The translations under genes and the position numbers were made by a program. Positions 53,173 to 64,000 of a stretch of DNA of 64,000 nucleotides are shown one piece after another (position 1 is the first letter of the stretch; each line of letters begins with the position of its first letter). The notes under the pieces were generated by a model. The model was not told the DNA's origin, ran no database searches, and was given only the letters and a program-made list of their open reading frames with translations. The stretch is from Candidatus Zixiibacteriota bacterium (GTDB lineage: Bacteria; Zixibacteria; MSB-5A5; GN15; FEB-12): positions 1 through 64,000 of the forward strand of contig JAJRSF010000063.1 in assembly GCA_024278935.1 (NCBI GenBank), given 5' to 3'.

Positions 53173-54456
53173 ATGAAAATTTCAGCAGTAGAACCGGATT
53201 CACCACTATTTGGATATGTCCGTCCGGGCTACACAGTTAAATCAGTCAACGGGAAAGAGATTTTAGACTCAATTGATTTCCGTTTTAAGACTACCGATGA
53301 ACAGGTCTCTATTGTATTCGCCGATCCAAAAGGGGAAGAGATAGCTTTTGACTTTGAAGCATTTTATGCTGATGATTTAGGGCTGACTTTGGATGACGGC
53401 AAAATTAAAGTTTGTCGCAATAGCTGTATTTTCTGTTTTGTGCATCAACAACCAAAAGGGATGCGCAAAGGGTTGTATATCAAAGATGAGGATTACCGTC
53501 TTTCGTTTACTCATGGAAATTTTGTGACTCTTTCAAATACAACGCAGGAAGATCTAGACCGAATTATTGAACAACGCTTGTCGCCGATTTATATTTCGGT
53601 GCATGCATCAGACGATACCCTTCGTCGGTGTATGCTTAAAAATGAAAAGCTTGCTCCAATCATTCCGACTATAAAATATTTGACTGACAATGGAATTGCG
53701 GTGCATACGCAAGTAGTGCTTTGCCCCGGCGTGAACGATGGCAAGTATTTGGAAAAAACTATCGACCAGCTTTCGGAGCTTTGTCCAAATGTTGAAACGC
53801 TGGCGGTTGTGCCTGTTGGGTTAACAAAGTATCGGGACCATCTTCCGAATTTACGAAATTACCGAGCCGATGAAGCTGCCGAGATAATTGATTTTATTGA
53901 GAAGAAACAAAAAGAAAATTTAAAGACGCTTGGTACACGATTTGTCTGGGCATCCGATGAGTTTTATATAGAGGCAAAACGATCACTTCCGCCACTGCAT
54001 ACCTATGAAGATATGTCGCAGTTTGAAAATGGTATCGGCATGGTGCGTGAGTTTATAACAATGTTTAATTACCGTAAAGCAAAATTGAAATCATTGAAAT
54101 CTGATAAGCGGGTTCTCTTCTTAACGGGACATTCCGCATATCCATTTTTATCAAAAGAGGTTTTGCCATATATCCAAAATGAGCTAAAATTGAAACTTGA
54201 AATTGTCCCTGTTGAAAATCAGTTTTGGGGCAAGATGGTCACAGTCTCCGGTTTGTTGACCGGGCAGGATATGCTGAGGCAGGCACGGATTCGTCATGCA
54301 GAGTTTGATACTGTTGTGCTTCCGCCGAACTGTATTAATAACGATGATCTCTTTTTGGATAATTTATCTTTAGCACAATTTAAGACAGCTTTGAATAAAG
54401 AAGTTGTTATCGGGCAGTATAATTTAGCAGAAACATTAAAAGAGGTGTTCAATTGA
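53173..54456 (+). CDS. DUF512 radical-SAM-like protein with N-terminal PDZ domain
   Basis: A 427-residue cytosolic protein. Residues about 1-60 resemble a PDZ-like domain (VEPDSPLFGYVRPGYTVKSVNG). The motif CRNSCIFCFVHQQPKGMR holds CxxxCxxC, the cysteine pattern of radical SAM [4Fe-4S] proteins. DUF512 follows (VAVVPVGLTKYR, ASDEFYI). The reaction is unknown. It overlaps the start of der by 4 bases, an arrangement that is common in many phyla. It is preceded by a good promoter. Confidence 0.88.
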   Translation: MKISAVEPDSPLFGYVRPGYTVKSVNGKEILDSIDFRFKTTDEQVSIVFADPKGEEIAFDFEAFYADDLGLTLDDGKIKVCRNSCIFCFVHQQPKGMRKGLYIKDEDYRLSFTHGNFVTLSNTTQEDLDRIIEQRLSPIYISVHASDDTLRRCMLKNEKLAPIIPTIKYLTDNGIAVHTQVVLCPGVNDGKYLEKTIDQLSELCPNVETLAVVPVGLTKYRDHLPNLRNYRADEAAEIIDFIEKKQKENLKTLGTRFVWASDEFYIEAKRSLPPLHTYEDMSQFENGIGMVREFITMFNYRKAKLKSLKSDKRVLFLTGHSAYPFLSKEVLPYIQNELKLKLEIVPVENQFWGKMVTVSGLLTGQDMLRQARIRHAEFDTVVLPPNCINNDDLFLDNLSLAQFKTALNKEVVIGQYNLAETLKEVFN

Positions 54457-55766
54457 AGATCCCTACCGTTGCAGTAATAGGTCGTCCAAATGTTGGCAAG
54501 TCATCATTGTTTAATCGGTTTTTACAGAAACGATTAGCCGTTGTCGACGCACAGCCGGGAGTGACTCGTGATCGAAATTATTCTATATGTGATTGGGCAG
54601 GGCAGGATTTTTATCTGGTAGATACCGGTGGAATTGTACCGGACTCATCGGACTTGATGGAAAAGCTGATTACCGATCAGACCGATTTTGCTATTCATGA
54701 ATCCGATCTGATTCTCTTTGTTGTTGATGCCCAAGTCGGTATTGATTCTGTTGATATGAAAATTGCGAAGTCTCTTAAAAAAGAGAAAAAGAAATGTATT
54801 CTCGTTGCGAATAAAACTGATAATGCCGAAGCTGAAATGCAAATATATGAATTTATGAAACTTGGGCTTGGTGAACCGATGCCGGTATCTGCAACTGTTG
54901 GGCTTGGTGTTGGTGAACTTCTTGATGCACTCTCCGATGCTCTTTCAGAATTTAAAACAGATACAGTAGAACGCTCAAATGATATTCGTATTGCTTTAGT
55001 AGGTCGTCCAAATGTTGGGAAATCATCATTTATAAATAAACTGGTAGGGACTGACAGACTGATTGTTTCTCCAATCGCTGGGACTACCAGAGATTCTGTT
55101 GACACTCCTTTTGAATACGATGGTGATAAGTATACGCTGGTTGATACAGCCGGGCTTCGACGAAAATATAAAGTGCAGGAGTCTGTTGAGTTTTATACAA
55201 CATTGCGGACCGACCGTGCTTTGGATAATTCCGATGTTACCCTTGTTCTCATTGATGCGACCGAAAAACTGTCAAGTCAGGATCAACGGATTTTGGATAA
55301 GGTTACATCGATGCGTCGTCCTGTCATCATTGCGGTAAATAAATGGGACTTGATTGAAAAAGATACTTCGACTGCCGATGAATTCAGTCGTGATATTAAA
55401 GATATAATTTCTATGTATTCATATATTCCACTGATTTATATCTCAGCAAAAACAGGGCAGAGACTTGGCAAAGTTATCACGATGCTTAAGCATGTGCATG
55501 ATGAAAATCAACGTCGGATTCCAACATCGGAGTTGAATGATTTCTTGGAACGGGTCACAAATCGGACTCGTCCACCTGCTAGAAAAGGGAAGTATATACG
55601 GTTTTATTATATGACCCAGTCAGAAGTAGCTCCCCCGACGTTTATCTTTTTCTCGAATTTCCCTGAACTAATTGATAAAGCGTATATAAACTTTCTCTCT
55701 AATCAAATTAGGCAAGAGTTTGGCTTTCAAGGGGTTTCGTTTCGGTTGAAATTTAAAAAACGTTAG
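54453..55766 (+). CDS. der: Ribosome biogenesis GTPase Der (EngA)
   Basis: Essential double GTPase for maturation of the large ribosomal subunit. The 437-residue protein has two G domains: GRPNVGKSSLFN (about 9-20) with DTGG and NKTD, and GRPNVGKSSFIN (about 183-194) with DTAGLRRK and NKWD. A KH-like C-terminal domain follows (RKGKYIRFYYMTQ, FLSNQIRQEFGF). TTG start at 54453 overlaps the DUF512 stop by 4 bases (TTGA). Length is normal. Confidence 0.97.
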   Translation: MKIPTVAVIGRPNVGKSSLFNRFLQKRLAVVDAQPGVTRDRNYSICDWAGQDFYLVDTGGIVPDSSDLMEKLITDQTDFAIHESDLILFVVDAQVGIDSVDMKIAKSLKKEKKKCILVANKTDNAEAEMQIYEFMKLGLGEPMPVSATVGLGVGELLDALSDALSEFKTDTVERSNDIRIALVGRPNVGKSSFINKLVGTDRLIVSPIAGTTRDSVDTPFEYDGDKYTLVDTAGLRRKYKVQESVEFYTTLRTDRALDNSDVTLVLIDATEKLSSQDQRILDKVTSMRRPVIIAVNKWDLIEKDTSTADEFSRDIKDIISMYSYIPLIYISAKTGQRLGKVITMLKHVHDENQRRIPTSELNDFLERVTNRTRPPARKGKYIRFYYMTQSEVAPPTFIFFSNFPELIDKAYINFLSNQIRQEFGFQGVSFRLKFKKR

Positions 55767-55864: not shown

Positions 55865-57157
55865 ATGGAGACTCTAAACAGTTTAGAAAACAGATACGAC
55901 GAATTGGAAGGTCGCTTTGCCGAGCAAAAGGCAAACTTAAAAGACCTCGCCATGATGGGAACTGTCATTACATCGATTCATGAGATTCATGCTGTCTTAT
56001 CGGTGGTGATGGAGATGTCGATTCGATTAGTCGATGGTGAAGTAGGCGGGATTCTTTTACATGAAAATGATGAGTTAGTTGGGAAAGCATCATGGGGAGT
56101 GAATTACGATTTTTTGAAAACGTTGATGTATGAAGAAGATCAAACTTTGATTTCATACTGTCAGCAAAATCAAGAAACAATCATTTTGCAATCTCTGGGA
56201 GTTCGCTCTGAAGAGGGCATGGCAATAGAATCTATTATTTGTGCTCCGATTAAAACATCTGAAACTTGTTATGGTACGATAATCATCATCAATAAATCGG
56301 ATGGTTCCGACTACACCGAAGATGATAAAGAAATGCTTGAGATGCTTTTAACATATGTTGCCGTCGCAATAGAAAATTCAATCTTAATGCAGGAGCGGTT
56401 AGCTACTCAAAAAATTGAACAAGAGATGGCAATAGCTAAACAGATTCAGGAAACGATTCTTCCACAAAATATAGATGAATTTGAAGGTGTCGAAATCGGT
56501 GCGGTATATTTTCCAGCTCGAGATGTTGGTGGTGATTTCTACGATGTTGTCAAATTAGAAGATAATAAATTTGTAATAATTATGGGCGATGTTTCAAACA
56601 AGGGTGTCCCTGCGGCGCTTGTTATGTCGGCTGTCTCGGCAATTATAAAATCTACTTTAAAACAAAACAAAGATATTTCAATAGCAGAACTTGCTGAAAC
56701 GACAAACACTTTGTTGTCCACTGAAATTATCAAAGAAAGAGAAATGTTTGTAACGCTCTTTTTCTGTAAGTATGATTTTGATGAGATGAAAATTACGTTT
56801 TGTAACGCCGGGCATCTTCCCGGTTTATTTTACGATATAGAAGAACATAAAGTTATTGAGTTGGCTGTTGGAGGACCTATTATCGGTCAATTTCCAGACA
56901 TTCCATTTAAGCAAGGTGAGCAATCATTTAAGAAAGGTGATCGGTTATTTTTGTTTACCGATGGTCTTACTGAAGCTGCTGATGATAAAGGGCAGCTATT
57001 TGGAAGAGAAAGAGCTGAACTTGTTGTTTCAAACGAGTATCACCTTCCTCCAAAAGAATTTTGCTTAAAAGTCAAGGAATGGGTCGATCGGTTTACCGTA
57101 GGTTGTGCTGATGACATGGTTGATGATTTCACAATTATGCAGGTAAAGGCTGAATAA
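55865..57157 (+). CDS. GAF-domain PP2C-type serine phosphatase (RsbU/SpoIIE-like)
   Basis: A 430-residue protein. A coiled start (1-25) leads to a GAF sensor domain at about 30-175, then a linker helix EMAIAKQIQETILPQ and the PP2C/SpoIIE catalytic domain at about 200-428. Metal-site motifs seen are ARDVGGDFYDV, VSNKGVPAALVMS, and LFTDGLTEA. RsbU-type enzymes dephosphorylate a STAS anti-sigma antagonist. Substrate (57605 STAS) and kinase (57159) genes follow immediately, so this is the input of a partner-switching module. Confidence 0.88.
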   Translation: METLNSLENRYDELEGRFAEQKANLKDLAMMGTVITSIHEIHAVLSVVMEMSIRLVDGEVGGILLHENDELVGKASWGVNYDFLKTLMYEEDQTLISYCQQNQETIILQSLGVRSEEGMAIESIICAPIKTSETCYGTIIIINKSDGSDYTEDDKEMLEMLLTYVAVAIENSILMQERLATQKIEQEMAIAKQIQETILPQNIDEFEGVEIGAVYFPARDVGGDFYDVVKLEDNKFVIIMGDVSNKGVPAALVMSAVSAIIKSTLKQNKDISIAELAETTNTLLSTEIIKEREMFVTLFFCKYDFDEMKITFCNAGHLPGLFYDIEEHKVIELAVGGPIIGQFPDIPFKQGEQSFKKGDRLFLFTDGLTEAADDKGQLFGRERAELVVSNEYHLPPKEFCLKVKEWVDRFTVGCADDMVDDFTIMQVKAE

Positions 57158-57158
57158 A

Positions 57159-57581
57159 ATGGCAACATACATATTCACATATGCATCTGTATTAGAATCT
57201 GAAGAAAGCATGCTTTCTGATTTAGCAAAAGTTCTGTCTGAGAATTCGATAGTCAATTCAGAACGAAATGATTTTATGCTGATTATCTCAGAAGCGTTTA
57301 CCAATGCTCTTTTGCATGGTAATCAAATGAACCCTAATAAGAACATATACTTACATATCGACATTAAATCAAATCAGTTATCTGCCGACATAATTGATGA
57401 GGGCGAGCTAGGTTTAAGAGAAATTCAATCTAAAAAGCCTTCTGAATTATATGGAACTAATGGTCGTGGTGTTGATTTAATTCGACATTATTCCAGCCAT
57501 GTAGATTTTACTGAAGCTGAAAATGGTGGGACAAAAGTCTCTATGGTTTTAGATAGAAAGTTAGAAAAAGTAACCTCATAA
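57159..57581 (+). CDS. Anti-sigma regulatory kinase-like ATP-binding protein (RsbW-like)
   Basis: A 140-residue HATPase_c domain: N box in SEAFTNALLHGN (about 46-57), DEGELGL with the ATP aspartate near 87-93, and NGRGVDLIRHY. It would phosphorylate the STAS antagonist and hold a sigma factor or other partner. The ATG is 1 base past the stop of the phosphatase gene. No sigma factor gene is nearby, so its partner may be elsewhere or may not be a sigma factor. Confidence 0.85.
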   Translation: MATYIFTYASVLESEESMLSDLAKVLSENSIVNSERNDFMLIISEAFTNALLHGNQMNPNKNIYLHIDIKSNQLSADIIDEGELGLREIQSKKPSELYGTNGRGVDLIRHYSSHVDFTEAENGGTKVSMVLDRKLEKVTS

Positions 57582-57604
57582 TAAATATCCTCTAGGAGGA
57601 AAAG

Positions 57605-57955
57605 ATGGAAATTACAAGAAAAGAAGAAAATTCAGTAGCGATTTTAAGTGTAAAAGGACGACTTGATTTAGCAAGTGGTGCCAGCTTAAAAGATGAAGTA
57701 AAAGCATTGATGGAAAAAGAACAAATTATGATCCATTTGAATCTTGCTGAAGTTGATTTTATCAACTCATCCGGTTTAGGTGTTCTTGTTTCTATTATGA
57801 AAGATATCAGACTTCATAAAGGTCGCTTAACACTTTCTGACTTAGCTAGCTATGTGCAAGAGATTTTTGAGATTACTCAACTTTCACATATTTTTGAAAT
57901 CTTTACATCAGAAAATGAAGCGGTTGCCTCGTACCAGACAGTTTCTGCCAGTTAA
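57605..57955 (+). CDS. STAS-domain anti-sigma factor antagonist (RsbV-like)
   Basis: A 116-residue STAS domain. The phosphorylation serine lies in DFINSSGLGVLVSI (Ser about 55-56). It starts with MEITRKEENSVAILSVKGRLD, the usual RsbV-like start. AGGAGG nine bases upstream is the strongest ribosome binding site in the operon, fitting the usual need for excess antagonist. It is the likely substrate of the kinase and phosphatase upstream. Confidence 0.9.
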   Translation: MEITRKEENSVAILSVKGRLDLASGASLKDEVKALMEKEQIMIHLNLAEVDFINSSGLGVLVSIMKDIRLHKGRLTLSDLASYVQEIFEITQLSHIFEIFTSENEAVASYQTVSAS

Positions 57956-57985
57956 TAATACAAACCTGAAAATGTTGGTGGATAT

Positions 57986-59890
57986 ATGAGTAATGTAATT
58001 GAAAGAATAGGTGAACTGCTTGAAAAACTGCAGTCTCCTGATTTCTATAATCGTGAAGAAGCTGTAAACGAACTTGGATCTTTTCAGGAAGATGAAGCGG
58101 TTGCAGGGCTAGTTATGGCTTTAGAAGATAATGATTTAGGTATCCGTGAAATTGCCGCAGAAAATCTGGTAAAGATCAAAGGGGATACAGCGTCACAACT
58201 TCTTATTAAATTTTTAGGAAGTGAAGATATTGGAAGTAGAAACTTAGCATCTGAAATTCTTGTAAAAATTGGCGATGATGCGGTTGAAGCTCTTATAAAT
58301 GAACTAGAAAATGATGATCATGATATTCGTAAATTTGTCGTTGATATTGTAGGTCTTATAAAATCTAAAAAATCAGCACCTTATGTAAGTGGTAAATTAC
58401 AAGACAGTAATATCAATGTTGTCTGTTCTGCCGCAGAAGCATTAGGTGAGATTGGCGATGCTGCATCAATAAAAAGTTTAATCCAAGCATACGATAATAA
58501 TGAAGATATCAGACTGCAAGTTGTCGAAGCTTTGGGTAAGATTGGTGGAGAAGAAGCAATTGGATATCTCTATGAATATTTAAATACTGACGACCCAATG
58601 ATTTTATACGCTGGTATTGACGCAGTAGGAATCGTCGGGAATAAAGATTCAGTCAAACATTTATTAAAACATCTTGAGTCTACAGATGTTTCGATTGCTG
58701 AAGCTGCTATGTCGGCCATTGTTAATATTTCAATCGAGAATAAAGGTGCCATAGAGCAGGACCTTCCGCTTGATAAATTTTCAAGTTATCTTTTTGACGG
58801 TATTAAAAACAAAAATAAAAAATTAACAGAATTTACTCTTGCCCGCCTCAAACATTGGTATGGACAAGATATTCTCAATTCACTTTTGGAAGTACTTCAC
58901 TATGTAGATGAAGAAGACCTTAAGTCGATAGTTACTATGCTTGGTGATATAGGTACTTCGGCTTCCGGTGCAATTATAAAACAATTCCCAAAAGCAAATT
59001 CTGAACTAAAAATAATATATCTGAACATCTTAAAGCAGTATGTCGATGGCAGTATCGCACAACAACTGCTCGTTTTTAAAAATGATACTGATCCTGAAGT
59101 TCGTCGAAATATCGCATTTGTTCTCGGTGTCTCCGGGGATCCATCGATGATTGACCCGCTCAAAGTTATGACACAAGATAAAGTTGGTCATGTTCGGGCG
59201 GCAGCATATTCTGCTTTAGGTTGGTTCTGTGATGAATCTGATATGCAATTTTTGTTCGAAGGATTAAATGATAAATATACTGATGTAAGAGATGCTGCGA
59301 TGGGTGCCTTGATTTTACTTGGTCCGCAAGAAGTTGTCGCTCAATTTTTTGAGGACTTACATCATGCTGAAACTGAACGACAAAGAATTGCTGCAAATGC
59401 CTTAGGGCTGATCGGTGATCCGTCAGTGGTCAAACCATTGTTCCAGGCATTAAATCATCCGGAAAGTTCGATTCGTAAATCGGCTATCGATTCTCTTGCA
59501 AAAATTCGGGATATCGAAAATATCGATCCGCTTATGTTAGCCTTAAATGATGAGAAATCATCGGTTCGTAAATCTGCCTGTACAGCGATTGTTAGTATTA
59601 AAGGACAAGCTATCATTCCTGAGATTAGGTTCTTGCTAGACGATCAGGATATATGGGTTCGGTATCATATGATTAATATTATTGGTAACTCCGGTAATGC
59701 TGATTATGGTGAATTTATTCAGATATTTATCGATGGCAATGAAGATATTTTAAAATTGGCAGCTATAAAATCGCTGACACAATTAGGTTGCAAGGATGCG
59801 ATCTCCGAGATTTCTAAACTTCAAAATGATAAGAATCAAGATATCGTAAGTGCCGCAAAAGATGCACTTGATAACTTGCAGGACGCATAA
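57986..59890 (+). CDS. HEAT-repeat (PBS lyase-like) scaffold protein
   Basis: A 634-residue soluble protein made of about 18 HEAT-like helix pairs of 30-32 residues; many have the pattern D-IR-xx-A-xx-L-G-x-IG-x (for example DIRLQVVEALGKIGGEEAIGYL). No signal peptide or enzymatic motif is seen. It sits between the partner-switching module and the chemotaxis proteins, with the next gene starting 1 base after its stop. HEAT proteins in chemotaxis-like operons occur in other phyla; a scaffold role for assembling switch proteins is inferred. Confidence 0.85.
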   Translation: MSNVIERIGELLEKLQSPDFYNREEAVNELGSFQEDEAVAGLVMALEDNDLGIREIAAENLVKIKGDTASQLLIKFLGSEDIGSRNLASEILVKIGDDAVEALINELENDDHDIRKFVVDIVGLIKSKKSAPYVSGKLQDSNINVVCSAAEALGEIGDAASIKSLIQAYDNNEDIRLQVVEALGKIGGEEAIGYLYEYLNTDDPMILYAGIDAVGIVGNKDSVKHLLKHLESTDVSIAEAAMSAIVNISIENKGAIEQDLPLDKFSSYLFDGIKNKNKKLTEFTLARLKHWYGQDILNSLLEVLHYVDEEDLKSIVTMLGDIGTSASGAIIKQFPKANSELKIIYLNILKQYVDGSIAQQLLVFKNDTDPEVRRNIAFVLGVSGDPSMIDPLKVMTQDKVGHVRAAAYSALGWFCDESDMQFLFEGLNDKYTDVRDAAMGALILLGPQEVVAQFFEDLHHAETERQRIAANALGLIGDPSVVKPLFQALNHPESSIRKSAIDSLAKIRDIENIDPLMLALNDEKSSVRKSACTAIVSIKGQAIIPEIRFLLDDQDIWVRYHMINIIGNSGNADYGEFIQIFIDGNEDILKLAAIKSLTQLGCKDAISEISKLQNDKNQDIVSAAKDALDNLQDA

Positions 59891-59891
59891 A

Positions 59892-60284
59892 ATGACGCAA
59901 CACTCAATTTTGGTAGTAGATGATGAACTTTTAATTAGAGATCTCTTGTATGAGTTTTTCCAGGATCAAGGATGGGAAATTTCAATTGCCGATAACGGCA
60001 AACGTGCTATGGAGATTCTCAAAACAAAAGATATCGACCTGCTGCTTACAGATATTAAAATGCCGGAGATGGATGGACTTGATCTGACCGAGTATGTGCA
60101 GGAAAATTATCCTGAACTTCCGGTGATACTCATGACCGGGTTTCCGTCTGTGGAAACAGCAGTAACAGCACTGCGTGCAAAAGTGGAAGATTATATTATT
60201 AAACCATTTAATATTATGCAGCTCTATAAAACTGTTGAACAGAAAGTAAAAGAATCAACTGAAACAAAAGTAAAAGAATCATAA
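59892..60284 (+). CDS. Response regulator, receiver domain only
   Basis: A 130-residue CheY-like receiver: DDELLI at the acid pocket, phosphorylation aspartate in LLTDIKMPEMDG (about residue 53), the Thr in LMTGFPS and Lys in YIIKPF. A short Lys/Glu tail follows. The start is ATG at 59892, 1 base after the HEAT gene; an upstream start in the same frame would overlap it by 40 bases. No output domain is present. Confidence 0.9.
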   Translation: MTQHSILVVDDELLIRDLLYEFFQDQGWEISIADNGKRAMEILKTKDIDLLLTDIKMPEMDGLDLTEYVQENYPELPVILMTGFPSVETAVTALRAKVEDYIIKPFNIMQLYKTVEQKVKESTETKVKES

Positions 60285-60361
60285 TAAGAATATTGATTTA
60301 CTGAAGAGTGCAGATTTGTCAGTAGAATAAATGTGATAGAAAAGCTTTACAGAGGATAACA

Positions 60362-61375
60362 ATGGATTATAAAACAGTTCCTGAACCGGAAATGACAAAA
60401 GAAGAATTTTTGCTGATTCGTGATTTCATTCATGAAAAATGCGGAATTTTCTTTGCGGAAAACAAAATGTATCTTGTCAAAAACCGTTTAATTAAGCGGA
60501 TGAAGGACTTAGGTATAAATAGTTTTCGCGATTATTTTTACCATGTTAAATATGACACCTCACAAAAAGAATTCACTGCATTAGTGGGGCTAATTACGAC
60601 TAATGAAACAAGTTTTTTAAGAAATGAACCGCAACTTTTATCTTTTTCTGAAGAAGTTCTTCCTAAAATTATTGAAGAAAAAGTAAGCAGCAGAAGTCCG
60701 AAGGTTATTAAAATTTGGTCTGCCGGATGTTCAACCGGAGAAGAGCCATACACCTTGGCGATTATTCTCAAAGAAAAAATTCCTGATTTTGCTAACTGGA
60801 AAATCGAGATTATTGCAAATGACATCTCAGAACAAGTTTTGCAAAAAGCTCGTACCGGTATTTATAGTGGGATAACATTGCGGAATTTAAAACCTGAGAT
60901 TTTAAATAAGCATTTTACCAAGCACAATGAAGACTATAAAGTTAATCAGGATATCAAATCGATGGTACAGTTTTCGCATCTGAATCTCAATGACCCTCGA
61001 CGAATTACTATGACCTCAAAGTTTGATACTGTGTTCTGCCGTAACGTTATGATTTATTTCTCCGAAGAAGTAAAGAAGCAACTGGTTAGAGGATTCTTTA
61101 ACTCCCTCAGACCGGGTGGTTACTTTTATATCGGACATTCCGAGACTCTGCACGGTATTTCAAAAGCATTCAAACTAGTTTATTTGAAAAATGCACTTGT
61201 TTATAATAAAGAAAATGCAAGCTCCGACACTGACAAGAAATCATCTACCGGAATATCTGTGAGACGACCTACAATGCTTGTAAATAGAAAGAGTAATCCT
61301 GCCGGAGGTGCTTCAAGAGCACTTGAACTTTTGAATAAAATCAAAAAGAATAAACTGGCAGCCGCAAAAAGTTAA
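60362..61375 (+). CDS. cheR: Chemotaxis protein methyltransferase CheR
   Basis: S-adenosylmethionine-dependent methylation of glutamates in chemoreceptors. The 337-residue protein has the N-terminal all-alpha domain, then ITTNETSFLRNEPQL, the SAM motif IWSAGCSTGEEPYTLAI (about 121-137), NDISEQVLQKAR and FCRNVMIYF. It has a 50-residue Lys/Ser-rich C-terminal extension, longer than E. coli CheR. GAGG precedes the ATG. No methyl-accepting receptor is in the window. Confidence 0.94.
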   Translation: MDYKTVPEPEMTKEEFLLIRDFIHEKCGIFFAENKMYLVKNRLIKRMKDLGINSFRDYFYHVKYDTSQKEFTALVGLITTNETSFLRNEPQLLSFSEEVLPKIIEEKVSSRSPKVIKIWSAGCSTGEEPYTLAIILKEKIPDFANWKIEIIANDISEQVLQKARTGIYSGITLRNLKPEILNKHFTKHNEDYKVNQDIKSMVQFSHLNLNDPRRITMTSKFDTVFCRNVMIYFSEEVKKQLVRGFFNSLRPGGYFYIGHSETLHGISKAFKLVYLKNALVYNKENASSDTDKKSSTGISVRRPTMLVNRKSNPAGGASRALELLNKIKKNKLAAAKS

Positions 61376-61401
61376 ATAATAATTAGTCAGGATAGATTGA
61401 T

Positions 61402-61776
61402 ATGAGTAGAACAATTTTAGTAGTAGATGATTCGCCGACAGTTGTGAAATTTGTCAGTTTTTCATTGAAAAACAAAGGATTCAATGTCGTCACTGCGTGT
61501 GATGGTATGGATGCTGTTGAAAAAATTTCGAACATGTCGGAGAAAGTTGACTTGGTTATCACTGATTTGAATATGCCGAATCTTGATGGGTATGGACTCA
61601 TTGATACTTTGAGGCATAATGATGAATTTGCTAATACACCTATTATGATTCTTACCTCTGAAGAAGATGAGGAAGATAAACAAAAAGGTATACAAGTTGG
61701 TGCCAGCTCTTATTTGGTCAAACCATTTAAGCCGGCTTTGCTTGTACAAGAAGTAGAAAAGTATATAAAAAACTAA
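61402..61776 (+). CDS. CheY-like response regulator
   Basis: A 124-residue receiver domain: VDDSPTVVKF, phosphorylation aspartate in VITDLNMPNLDGYG (about 55), conserved Thr in ILTSEEDEED, and Lys in YLVKPFKP. It differs from the following CheY and may have another target or act as a phosphate sink. AGGAT lies upstream of the ATG. No output domain. Confidence 0.92.
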   Translation: MSRTILVVDDSPTVVKFVSFSLKNKGFNVVTACDGMDAVEKISNMSEKVDLVITDLNMPNLDGYGLIDTLRHNDEFANTPIMILTSEEDEEDKQKGIQVGASSYLVKPFKPALLVQEVEKYIKN

Positions 61777-61795
61777 TTACAATAAAGGAGTAGCT

Positions 61796-62170
61796 GTGGC
61801 TGACTTAAAAATATTAGCAGTTGATGACAGTCCTACTATGAGAAGAATTATTTTGAACACTTTAAAACGTGCCGGTTTTACTGATGTAGTTGAAGCTGTT
61901 GATGGTAAGGATGCTCTAGCAAAAATGGAAGTAGATAATTTCAATTTTGTCATTACCGATTGGAATATGCCGGAAATGGATGGTTTAACTTTTGTAACGA
62001 CTCTCAGAAAAAATGATAAGTACAAAACATTACCGATTTTAATGGTTACAACAAGATCGGTAAAAGATGACATACTAGAAGCGATGAAAGCAGGGGTAAG
62101 TAATTATATAGTTAAACCTTTTACGCCTGATACATTAAAAGAAAAAATCGATCAAATTTTAGCTGGATAG
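61796..62170 (+). CDS. cheY: Chemotaxis response regulator CheY
   Basis: A 124-residue CheY: VDDSPTMRRIILNTLKRAG, phosphorylation aspartate in FVITDWNMPEMDGL (near 57), VTTRSVKDD with the Thr, and NYIVKPFTP with the Lys. It is more CheY-like than its neighbour, with the DWNMPEMDG motif of flagellar CheY. GTG start at 61796 with AAAGGAG upstream. The phosphatase CheZ follows. Confidence 0.95.
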   Translation: MADLKILAVDDSPTMRRIILNTLKRAGFTDVVEAVDGKDALAKMEVDNFNFVITDWNMPEMDGLTFVTTLRKNDKYKTLPILMVTTRSVKDDILEAMKAGVSNYIVKPFTPDTLKEKIDQILAG

Positions 62171-62189
62171 AATTCAAAAGGAGAATATG

Positions 62190-62780
62190 ATGTCAGAAGT
62201 GATAAATCTGCAGGACAAAATTAAAGCAGAACTATTGGATATATCCGGAACTATCAATAAAATAGTTGATAGTTATAAGTCTCTACATAGTCCGCTTGTA
62301 GAGTCTCAGGAAAATGTTCCAAAAGCAACACAACAATTAGATAAGATATCCGAACAGACAGCAGCAGCAACACATCGTATGTTAGATACAGCTGAGCTAA
62401 TTACACCACGTGAAGATGAAGTAATTGCCGGTCTGAATAAGATAAAAGAAATTGTACAAAATAATGAAACTACAGGTGTAATTGAATTGTGTGATGCGTT
62501 AGCTCAAAAAGCATCAGACAATAATAACGATGCCTTCGTAATTATGGATGCACTTCAATTTCAAGATATTACTTCACAGCAAATTGACCATGCCGTTGTT
62601 TTGCTTGAAGAGTTGGAAGTAAAATTAAGTAAAATTTTATCAGCTTTAAATAGTGAGGGAGAAGAAACTCCTGCTCCAAAAATGCCATCAAAAAAACAAC
62701 GTGCTTATGATCCGCATGCTGATCTTTTTGATAAGAAAACAAACCAAAATGATATTGATAGTTTGTTTGCAAAGAAATAA
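62190..62780 (+). CDS. cheZ: CheZ-like CheY-P phosphatase
   Basis: 196 residues (197 from an alternative ATG at 62187; the second ATG gives better spacing to AAAGGAG). The long helical hairpin contains ALQFQDITSQQIDH, matching the CheZ active-site pattern D-x-x-x-Q in FQDLTGQ. A disordered linker (ETPAPKMPSKK) leads to a C-terminal acidic/aliphatic peptide NDIDSLFAKK, like the CheY-binding tail of CheZ. CheZ is commonly seen in Proteobacteria; presence here is notable. It lies right between cheY and cheA. Confidence 0.85.
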   Translation: MSEVINLQDKIKAELLDISGTINKIVDSYKSLHSPLVESQENVPKATQQLDKISEQTAAATHRMLDTAELITPREDEVIAGLNKIKEIVQNNETTGVIELCDALAQKASDNNNDAFVIMDALQFQDITSQQIDHAVVLLEELEVKLSKILSALNSEGEETPAPKMPSKKQRAYDPHADLFDKKTNQNDIDSLFAKK

Positions 62781-62832
62781 CTAAAAGATACTCAGGTATC
62801 TTTCTAAACATAATAAACAGATTGGCTGATAT

Positions 62833-64000
62833 ATGTCAGATGATATAGGATTTGAAATTGATGAAATGCAGGAGATTATTGACGACTTCCTGGTGGAGGC
62901 CGATGAACTCATAAGTTCACTCGACACAAATTTAGTTGAGTTAGAAGGTCAGCCTGAGAATCTTGATTTATTAAATGAAATTTTCCGTGCTGCTCATACT
63001 ATCAAAGGAACCTCGAGTTTTCTTGGGTTTGAACAAGTTACCAGCCTTACCCATAAGATGGAAGATATTTTAAATAAGCTCAGAAAATCTGAGCTAAAAG
63101 TAACTCCAAATATTATGGATCTGATGCTTGAGTCTTTAGATATTTTAAAAGTGCTTATAGTAAATGTGCATGAAGGGAAAGATGAAGTTCTCGATTTAGA
63201 TTCTATTAATAATAGATTAATATTGGCCTATGAAGGTAAAAATGACACTGGCAGTGAAGCTGCTCCTTCTGATGCACAGCAAGTTGAAAACAAAGAAGAC
63301 TTACAAGCTAATCCTGTATCTGAAACTAAAACAGAAACAACCGAACAAACTACTGATGAAGTTAAAGCTGATTCAACTGATAAAGTTTCTGCTCAAGCAA
63401 AAGATGACCACGCACATAAAAAAGCATCAGACCAGACAATCCGTGTCGACGTTGGTCGTTTAGATACATTGATGAATATGATGGGCGAGCTTGTACTTGG
63501 TCGTAATAGTATGGTGCAGACTGTCGGCAAGCTTACATCGGAACATCAAGGTGACTATAATTTAGAACATCTTACCGGAGCATCAAACGCTATCAGTTTT
63601 ATTACAACCGAACTGCAAATGGCTGTAATGAAAATGAGAATGCAACCTATTGGAAAAGTTTTCAAAAAAATTCCACGTTTAGTTCGTGATCTTGCGAGAG
63701 AATCAAAAAAAGAAATCGCTTTGGAAATTTTTGGTGAGACAACTGAACTTGATAAATCTATTATCGAAGAAATCGGCGATCCTTTAGTGCATATTATTCG
63801 GAATTCCTGTGACCATGGTATTGAATCTCCTGAAGACCGTTTAGCAAATGGCAAACCTAGCAAAGGCACTGTCAAACTTATAGCTGAACAAGAAGGTTCG
63901 AATATTATTATCAAAATAGTTGATGATGGTAAAGGGCTTGATGTTGAAGCTATTCGTAATAAAGCAGTTGAAAAGAATCTCGCATCGAGAAACGAAATCG
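62833..64000 (+). CDS. cheA: Chemotaxis histidine kinase CheA, N-terminal part (runs off the window)
   Basis: 389 residues are visible; the frame stays open to the window end. P1 phosphotransfer domain: IFRAAHTIKGTSSFLG with the phospho-histidine at residue 55. A Gln/Thr/Glu-rich linker (about 135-200) contains no P2 domain, so CheY may dock differently. P3 dimerisation starts with RVDVGRLDTLMNMMGELVLGRN (in part), and the kinase domain shows LVHIIRNSCDHGIESPEDR and DDGKGLDVEAI. GTG/ATG choice: ATG at 62833 without a strong ribosome binding site. The rest of the kinase and the CheW-like domain are past 64000. Confidence 0.95.
   Translation, partial: MSDDIGFEIDEMQEIIDDFLVEADELISSLDTNLVELEGQPENLDLLNEIFRAAHTIKGTSSFLGFEQVTSLTHKMEDILNKLRKSELKVTPNIMDLMLESLDILKVLIVNVHEGKDEVLDLDSINNRLILAYEGKNDTGSEAAPSDAQQVENKEDLQANPVSETKTETTEQTTDEVKADSTDKVSAQAKDDHAHKKASDQTIRVDVGRLDTLMNMMGELVLGRNSMVQTVGKLTSEHQGDYNLEHLTGASNAISFITTELQMAVMKMRMQPIGKVFKKIPRLVRDLARESKKEIALEIFGETTELDKSIIEEIGDPLVHIIRNSCDHGIESPEDRLANGKPSKGTVKLIAEQEGSNIIIKIVDDGKGLDVEAIRNKAVEKNLASRNEI

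Follow-up and report, generated by a model that had tools for sequence, protein, structure and literature searches.

A partner switch heads a conserved flagellar gene cluster in Zixibacteria and may act on the FlrBC sigma-54 system

Ten genes lie head to tail on the + strand at positions 55865-64000 of the window, the 64,000-nucleotide stretch of DNA analyzed here, which belongs to a Zixibacteria MAG. Intergenic gaps are 1-77 bases, and the order is RsbU-like, RsbW-like, STAS, HEAT, RR1, CheR, RR2, CheY, CheZ, CheA. All ten genes of this one-strand row, first described in an earlier note on the same DNA, were confirmed; they are given here with their upstream neighbor.

54453..55766, +, presumably a Der/EngA-type GTPase, a name taken from sequence features and general knowledge rather than a Pfam scan; upstream neighbor kept in many relatives (gene-order tables)
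55865..57157, +, RsbU-like GAF + SpoIIE/PP2C serine phosphatase (Pfam SpoIIE 7e-41, GAF 1e-8)
57159..57581, +, RsbW/SpoIIAB-like serine kinase, a GHKL ATPase (Pfam HATPase_c_2 3.5e-15)
57605..57955, +, STAS anti-sigma-antagonist-type protein (Pfam STAS 1e-18; TIGR00377 above cut-off)
57986..59890, +, HEAT-repeat solenoid, probable chemotaxis adaptor (Pfam HEAT_2 9e-80)
59892..60284, +, RR1, stand-alone NtrC-like receiver (Pfam Response_reg 7e-31)
60362..61375, +, CheR receptor methyltransferase (Pfam CheR 1e-62, CheR_N 2e-15)
61402..61776, +, RR2, stand-alone receiver of the chemotaxis block (Pfam Response_reg 2e-29)
61796..62170, +, CheY (best NCBIfam match CheY, 141 bits)
62187..62780, +, CheZ (Pfam PF04344, 42.7 bits against a cut-off of 30.7)
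62833..64000, running on beyond the window, +, CheA with P1, P3, P4 and P5, no P2 (Pfam P1/P3/P4)

Past the window, the row runs directly into CheB, FlrB, FlrC (a sigma-54 activator), MotA, MotB and flgB onwards, a full flagellar cluster. Dozens of Zixibacteria loci show this gene order again (gene-order tables), and the row is therefore not a product of chance. The earlier note had proposed a single operon, to be doubted if its order were conserved in no relative: the order is conserved, but the row does not stop at CheA. Among the partners that it suggested seeking beyond position 64000, CheB and flagellar genes follow directly, and CheW and nine MCP matches are present in the genome, which also holds sigma-28 and a FlgM-like gene. 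As the note had stated, no sigma factor gene was found among the genes of the row, by Pfam or among the genes past the window; sigma-28 sits on another contig. Not every RsbU-RsbW-STAS partner switch has a cognate sigma factor in its locus. A scan for sigma-70 promoters and terminators gave a signal little above that of shuffled sequence.

Judged from alignments, the predicted catalytic residues are conserved throughout the RsbU-RsbW-STAS partner switch. In the phosphatase, the metal-binding aspartates D224, D242, D366 and D420/D421 are invariant in 22 relatives; in the kinase, E45 (the catalytic Glu), N49 (the N-box Asn) and the GRG box are invariant in 18. The STAS protein, whose nearest solved structures by profile comparison are TM1442 and SpoIIAA, carries the motif FxNSSGLG (N54 S55 S56 G57), with both serines invariant in 21 relatives. 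RR1 keeps D10, D11, D54, T82 and K104 in all of 24 relatives, and lies next to STAS in 74 of 76 loci. Some loci have only part of the switch: at three full-length STAS loci no RsbU or RsbW adjoins. In some genomes RsbW is joined in one protein with RsbU or with STAS, G068 and G070 having PP2C-kinase fusions.

Partner switch and chemotaxis genes do not always travel together. Across the 132 genomes surveyed, a STAS orthologue occurs in 93 of the 98 that bear FliG and in all 61 flagellated genomes of the near-complete subset, these and the following co-occurrence counts being transcribed by hand from tables, raw with respect to shared ancestry and drawn partly from incomplete MAGs. The link to motility put forward in the earlier note is upheld. 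The co-occurrence of STAS with CheA is not tight: in at least 37 flagellated genomes STAS is present while CheZ, HEAT and flagellar-type CheA are all absent, and the loci read in such chemotaxis-poor genomes keep the partner switch, RR1 and FlrBC and lack CheR, CheZ and full CheA. Full-length STAS loci retain RR1 in 36 of 38 cases, FlrB in 37, FlrC in 36, HEAT in 17 and CheA in 15. Conversely, a HEAT-CheR-CheY-CheZ-CheA block is present in other lineages without a partner switch. The two halves of the row are separable, and the chemotaxis genes form a cassette that is often lost. An inseparable module of partner switch and chemotaxis was considered and is ruled out by the co-occurrence data and by loci with one half missing.

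These distributions bear on the earlier note's central idea of one signaling module, in which the partner switch would act directly on chemotaxis signaling via HEAT and the stand-alone receivers. All the genes do share one conserved operon, HEAT is placed between STAS and RR1, and HEAT proteins elsewhere bind CheY or other Che proteins: Cpc7, of the Myxococcus Che7 system, binds CheY7 (PMC11514114), and OE2401F of Halobacterium binds CheD and a CheF (DUF439) protein (PMC2666748). With STAS found without the chemotaxis block in the flagellated genomes just mentioned, and the block found without the switch in other lineages, a single signaling module is not supported, and direct action of the switch on chemotaxis appears improbable.

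HEAT itself fits better among the chemotaxis genes than in the partner switch. Its AlphaFold model is an all-helical solenoid of 634 residues (pLDDT 92), for which a fold search returned generic HEAT/Armadillo solenoids only (SF3B1, CAND1, importins). Its distribution follows that of CheA and CheZ: in the 132 genomes, 46 have both HEAT and CheA, 12 HEAT only, 2 CheA only and 72 neither. Outside Zixibacteria, HEAT is followed by CheR in 36 of 36 loci, beside which partner switch and FlrBC are absent; lineages with HEAT before CheR include Zixibacteria, Nitrospirota, Desulfuromonadales and others. A role for HEAT as a scaffold of the partner switch is weakened, given its association with CheA/CheZ and CheR. 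The likeness to Cpc7 and OE2401F, both encoded with che genes, is one of gene context, and the present protein differs from them as a 634-residue solenoid that adjoins CheR in other lineages too. RR2 likewise accompanies CheR, in Zixibacteria and in other lineages. A 767-aa protein at locus L193 shows a receiver domain only in Pfam.

The rest of the block resembles E. coli-type chemotaxis, with CheZ, CheY, CheA, CheB, CheR, CheW and MCPs, and departs from it in a CheA without P2, in the extra RR2 and HEAT and, in one relative (L072), in a CheZ-CheA fusion. The alignment of CheZ with its E. coli counterpart (1kmi) spans 176 residues and takes in the DxxxQ active site and the C-terminal CheY-binding peptide Q..(I/V)D.L. 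Considered uncommon outside Proteobacteria in the earlier note, it is not rare within Zixibacteria (55 of 132 genomes). The absence of P2 that the note had singled out in CheA is real, 13 of 13 intact relatives having the P1, P3, P4 and P5 core and no P2; a P2-less CheA is nevertheless ordinary, as P2 is missing from about 52% of CheAs (PMC10782961). About 60 bases beyond the window the CheA reading frame is lost: an A-run that two same-genus genomes carry intact has a one-base deletion here. On the same contig thrS is broken by an in-frame TAG and flgL by a frameshift, so that the break in CheA is likely a sequence error. Programmed frameshifting is not favored, the A-run of the relatives being longer and in frame and thrS and flgL being broken too.

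Candidate partners of the switch follow the chemotaxis genes. FlrB is a PAS-HisKA-HATPase kinase (Pfam) paired with FlrC, which was recognized from its translation as an NtrC-type AAA+ activator, and both adjoin motAB-flgBC. A perfect sigma-54 site lies upstream of flgB in this genome; such a site precedes flgB in 26 of 31 relatives, against 0-1 before each of 15 other genes tested, and flgF in 8 of 11 (at most one mismatch), against none of 13 for flgG. In Vibrio cholerae, the flgB and flgF promoters depend on FlrBC and sigma-54 (PMC7064773). In some genomes without a FliG match, for instance G125-G127, STAS-RR1-RR1b-FlrB-FlrC is retained; in non-flagellated genomes the genes 3' of FlrC have housekeeping or transport functions, show no sigma-54-like sites and reveal no alternative output.

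The explanation we favor, with a confidence just short of even, is a phylum-wide flagellar super-operon of two separable modules, in which STAS acts on FlrBC and HEAT is a chemotaxis adaptor. It starts from the observed architecture, conserved order, catalytic residues, co-occurrence and sigma-54 sites; the signal, the STAS target and the roles of RR1 and HEAT are what we infer. The first module, RsbU-RsbW-STAS, RR1, FlrB and FlrC, would govern flagellum building. RsbU would sense an internal signal with its GAF domain, RsbW would phosphorylate the conserved STAS serine and RsbU would take the phosphate off; free STAS would then act on the FlrB-FlrC two-component system, most likely via RR1, and so set the activity of the flgB and flgF sigma-54 promoters. 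The second module, HEAT, CheR, RR2, CheY, CheZ, CheA and CheB, would serve ordinary flagellar chemotaxis with MCPs and CheW encoded elsewhere in the genome; HEAT may be an adaptor for its receivers or for CheR, and the whole would have been inserted between STAS and FlrB and often lost. More tentatively, the partner switch may have a sigma-54 two-component system as its output in place of a sigma factor: STAS and RR1 would gate FlrB-FlrC, hence the flagellar assembly checkpoint, in an arrangement that would be ancestral, phylum-wide and still present in non-flagellated descendants. Several points tell against this explanation: adjacency in a flagellar cluster could also stem from simple co-regulation, the FlgM-like gene and sigma-28 of this genome make an HsbA-type output available, and RsbU and RsbW do not adjoin STAS at every locus.

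FlgM is the main rival target for STAS. Unphosphorylated STAS would bind FlgM and free sigma-28 (FliA), placing late flagellar genes under control instead of the sigma-54 step. HsbA acts in this way in Pseudomonas aeruginosa, where its genes adjoin cheR, cheW and flgM (PMC5085249, PMC6482189); in the present genome FliA is matched at 263 bits, and the same flagellar cluster contains a FlgM-like gene of 111 aa. That gene is a weak FlgM match (E 0.017) and is separated from STAS, upstream of it, by about 40 kb, while RR1-FlrB-FlrC is adjacent and conserved, and STAS-RR1-FlrBC is kept where no FliG match is found; we regard this output as rather unlikely. RsbW might otherwise be a classical anti-sigma factor sequestering a sigma factor encoded elsewhere, to be released by STAS. 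This is the rule for SpoIIAB/RsbW, CrsR/HsbR bind RpoS (PMC6482189), and the genome has further genes of the sigma-70 family. We doubt it strongly all the same: RsbW evolves faster than STAS (17-71% identity across relatives, against 49-85%), it is missing at some loci where STAS stays, and the row is without a sigma factor gene. Least probable of all is an absence of functional coupling, the modules being simply co-transcribed in one large flagellar transcript; their independent gain and loss and the separate sigma-54 promoter of flgB would suit it, while RsbU-RsbW-STAS-RR1-FlrB-FlrC stays together phylum-wide, beyond the needs of a shared flagellar transcript, and STAS-RR1-FlrB-FlrC does so even in genomes without a FliG match.

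The closest described system is HptB-HsbR-HsbA of P. aeruginosa, whose hsbR-hsbA genes are a precedent for a flagella-linked partner switch (PMC5085249, PMC6482189). Together with CrsR-CrsA of Shewanella, it shares with the present locus a PP2C, a GHKL kinase and a STAS protein among flagellar and chemotaxis genes; hsbA adjoins cheR and cheW, and the system controls flagellar genes. Here, in contrast, the phosphatase and the kinase usually have a gene each and no receiver-PP2C-kinase fusion was found in this row, RsbU has a GAF in place of the receiver, no HptB lies in the row, and FlrBC and a full CheA/CheY/CheZ set stand in the same row, a link that is phylum-wide. SpoIIAA/SpoIIAB/SpoIIE and RsbV/RsbW/RsbU are of the same three families, with catalytic residues conserved, a likeness known here from sequence; they differ in that no sigma factor lies in this row and in that the setting is flagellar, not sporulation or stress. 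As in FlrBC, FleSR and FlgSR, a PAS histidine kinase is paired with an NtrC-type activator, with flgB and flgF sigma-54 sites as in V. cholerae (PMC7064773); unlike in those systems, a partner switch and a stand-alone receiver come first.

Partner switches of this kind usually control stress or sporulation genes; here one heads a flagellar cluster, where it most likely tunes the timing of flagellum building. To our knowledge, no partner switch with a stand-alone receiver ahead of FlrBC has been described. The locus is a concrete, testable candidate for flagellar control by a partner switch that has no sigma factor beside it, in a little-studied phylum represented here chiefly by MAGs. The HEAT protein, encoded ahead of CheR in several lineages, is a probable under-recognized component of chemotaxis, and the flagellated Zixibacteria that are poor in chemotaxis genes serve as natural knock-outs in which one module can be told from the other.

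The window covers positions 1 to 64,000 of a contig of 105,867 bases from a 3.4-Mb MAG, which related records assign to Candidatus Zixiibacteriota (Zixibacteria). The row of genes at its end and the flagellar genes of the same contig are the following:

From 55865, + strand, gaps of 1-77 bases: GAF-SpoIIE phosphatase (RsbU), RsbW-like kinase, STAS, HEAT, stand-alone receiver RR1, CheR, stand-alone receiver RR2, CheY, CheZ, CheA
18 kb after CheA, nearly all + strand, named from translations: CheB, PAS histidine kinase (FlrB), NtrC-type activator (FlrC), MotA, MotB, FlgB, FlgC, FliE, FliF, FliG, FliH, FliI and onwards
Locus L035, resemblance judged on translations: FlgK, CsrA, FlgL, FliW, flagellin, FliD, FliS, FlgM-like

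A search past 64000 for CheB and flagellar genes thus found both, with FlrB-FlrC-MotA-MotB-FlgB onwards; this CheB-to-FliI stretch and the genes in L035 make the row the head of a flagellar cluster. CheW and receptors, also sought beyond the row, gave five CheW-domain matches, one of them CheA itself, and nine MCP matches elsewhere in the genome, which also encodes sigma-28. A 108-aa gene between flgC and fliE (L003:8499-8825) is without Pfam match. The CheA frame is broken at L003:1258-1264 (contig about 64058-64064; five A versus six in two same-genus genomes), likely through sequence error or strain-level loss. An in-frame TAG in thrS and a frameshift in flgL on this contig (L035:17737-17775 and L035:3300-3330) suggest that the MAG carries sequence or assembly errors.

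The earlier note had treated partner switch and chemotaxis genes as a single module and proposed conservation of the gene order as a check. The order does recur: CheZ as query matches 55/132 Zixibacteria genomes, and many CheZ-bearing loci read Der-RsbU-RsbW-STAS-HEAT-RR1-(RR1b)-CheR-RR2-CheY-CheZ-CheA-CheB-FlrB-FlrC-MotA-MotB-FlgB-FlgC. Fusions of RsbU-RsbW (G068, G070), RsbW-STAS (G073 and other genomes) and CheZ-CheA (775 aa, L072:735-3062, G055) confirm working partners inside each half. In counts transcribed by hand and ignoring kinship, a STAS orthologue (at least 110 bits) occurs in 102 of the 132 genomes, namely 93/98 with a FliG match, counted as flagellated, versus 9/34 without, and 61/61 flagellated genomes of an approximate near-complete subset (n=74), while HEAT, found in 58/132, tracks both flagellar-type CheA (both 46, HEAT alone 12, CheA alone 2, neither 72) and CheZ (both 51, HEAT alone 7, CheZ alone 4). 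These counts do not support a single module: FliG and STAS occur together in at least 37 genomes that lack CheZ, HEAT and flagellar-type CheA, and there the locus runs RsbU-RsbW-STAS-RR1-(receiver or CheY)-FlrB-FlrC, with MotA-MotB-FlgB next in many. The partner switch goes with FlrB-FlrC and flagella; the chemotaxis genes, HEAT included, form a cassette between STAS and FlrB.

STAS-RR1-FlrB-FlrC is the most persistent gene set: among 38 full-length STAS loci, RR1 is present in 36, FlrB in 37, FlrC in 36 and RsbU in 35, and HEAT, CheR, CheA and CheZ each in only 15-17. STAS, FlrB and FlrC are present without a FliG match in G125, G126, G127 and G117, with RR1 in the first three. A second STAS-RR1 pair, in G023 (L193), precedes a 767-aa protein whose sole recognisable domain is a receiver. 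In relatives from across the phylum, the PP2C aspartates of RsbU, the kinase Glu/Asn of RsbW, the STAS serines and the receiver Asp/Thr/Lys never vary.

Beyond Zixibacteria, HEAT has its best-matching relatives in Nitrospirota, Nitrospinota, Desulfuromonadales, one Elusimicrobia record and others. CheR directly follows HEAT in 36/36 testable loci; picked by similarity to HEAT, these show that HEAT belongs with CheR but not the frequency of the pairing. In these lineages (L114-L153) CheB and a GAF protein often come next, and a STAS gene is found in none of the 36; L138 reads FlrB-FlrC-HEAT-CheR-RR2-CheY-CheZ-CheA-CheB-FlgB-FlgC-FliE-FliF-FliG, without partner switch. HEAT is predicted by AlphaFold as a single long helical solenoid (pLDDT 92). 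Like Cpc7, known to bind CheY7 (PMC11514114), and OE2401F, known to bind CheD and a CheF protein (PMC2666748), it lies in a chemosensory cluster; their binding supports the Zixibacteria protein as a candidate chemotaxis adaptor. In G072, the HEAT gene is joined to a ClpC N-terminal-like stretch (L189:8932-11541), probably a misassembly.

CheZ resembles E. coli CheZ (1kmi), aligning across the DxxxQ site and C-terminal peptide; in G096 (L074:9379-9888) DxxxQ and the C-terminal CheY-binding peptide are both lost, at a locus without CheA. The lack of P2 remarked earlier in CheA extends to 13/13 intact relatives, and about half of all CheAs lack this domain (PMC10782961). A 309-aa mini-CheA adjoining CheY in G051 and G056 (L160:8627-9553, L162:12874-13800) consists of Hpt and HATPase_c only, with no dimerisation or CheW domain; neither genome has an MCP match. 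G020 (L055), flagellated and 100% complete, retains HEAT, CheR, RR2, CheY and CheZ, but its genome has no CheA (H-kinase_dim) or MCP match and its locus lacks CheB.

flgB is preceded, 36 bases upstream, by a perfect sigma-54 site, TGGCACACCCCTTGCT (contig 70321), and flgF by a near-perfect one. The flgB site recurs with at most one mismatch in 26/31 relatives, the 15 comparison genes of the row having a site in 0-1 relatives each; the flgF site recurs in 8/11, versus 0/13 for flgG. In V. cholerae, the same two promoters depend on FlrBC and sigma-54 (PMC7064773). Together, conserved sites and this dependence indicate, at the sequence level, that FlrC most likely drives flgB and flgF.

In the simplest mechanism, GAF-sensed input would set the phosphorylation state of STAS, which may then act on RR1, FlrB or FlrC, as adjacency and retention suggest. 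The main rival is action of STAS on FlgM, already known for HsbA, the STAS-type output of the HptB-HsbR-HsbA partner switch in P. aeruginosa (PMC5085249, PMC6482189). The parts and general idea of the system are already known. As far as the literature consulted shows, what is new is a partner switch linked to FlrBC phylum-wide, its persistence where chemotaxis is missing, the retention of STAS-RR1-FlrB-FlrC even in genomes lacking flagella, and the pairing of HEAT with CheR.
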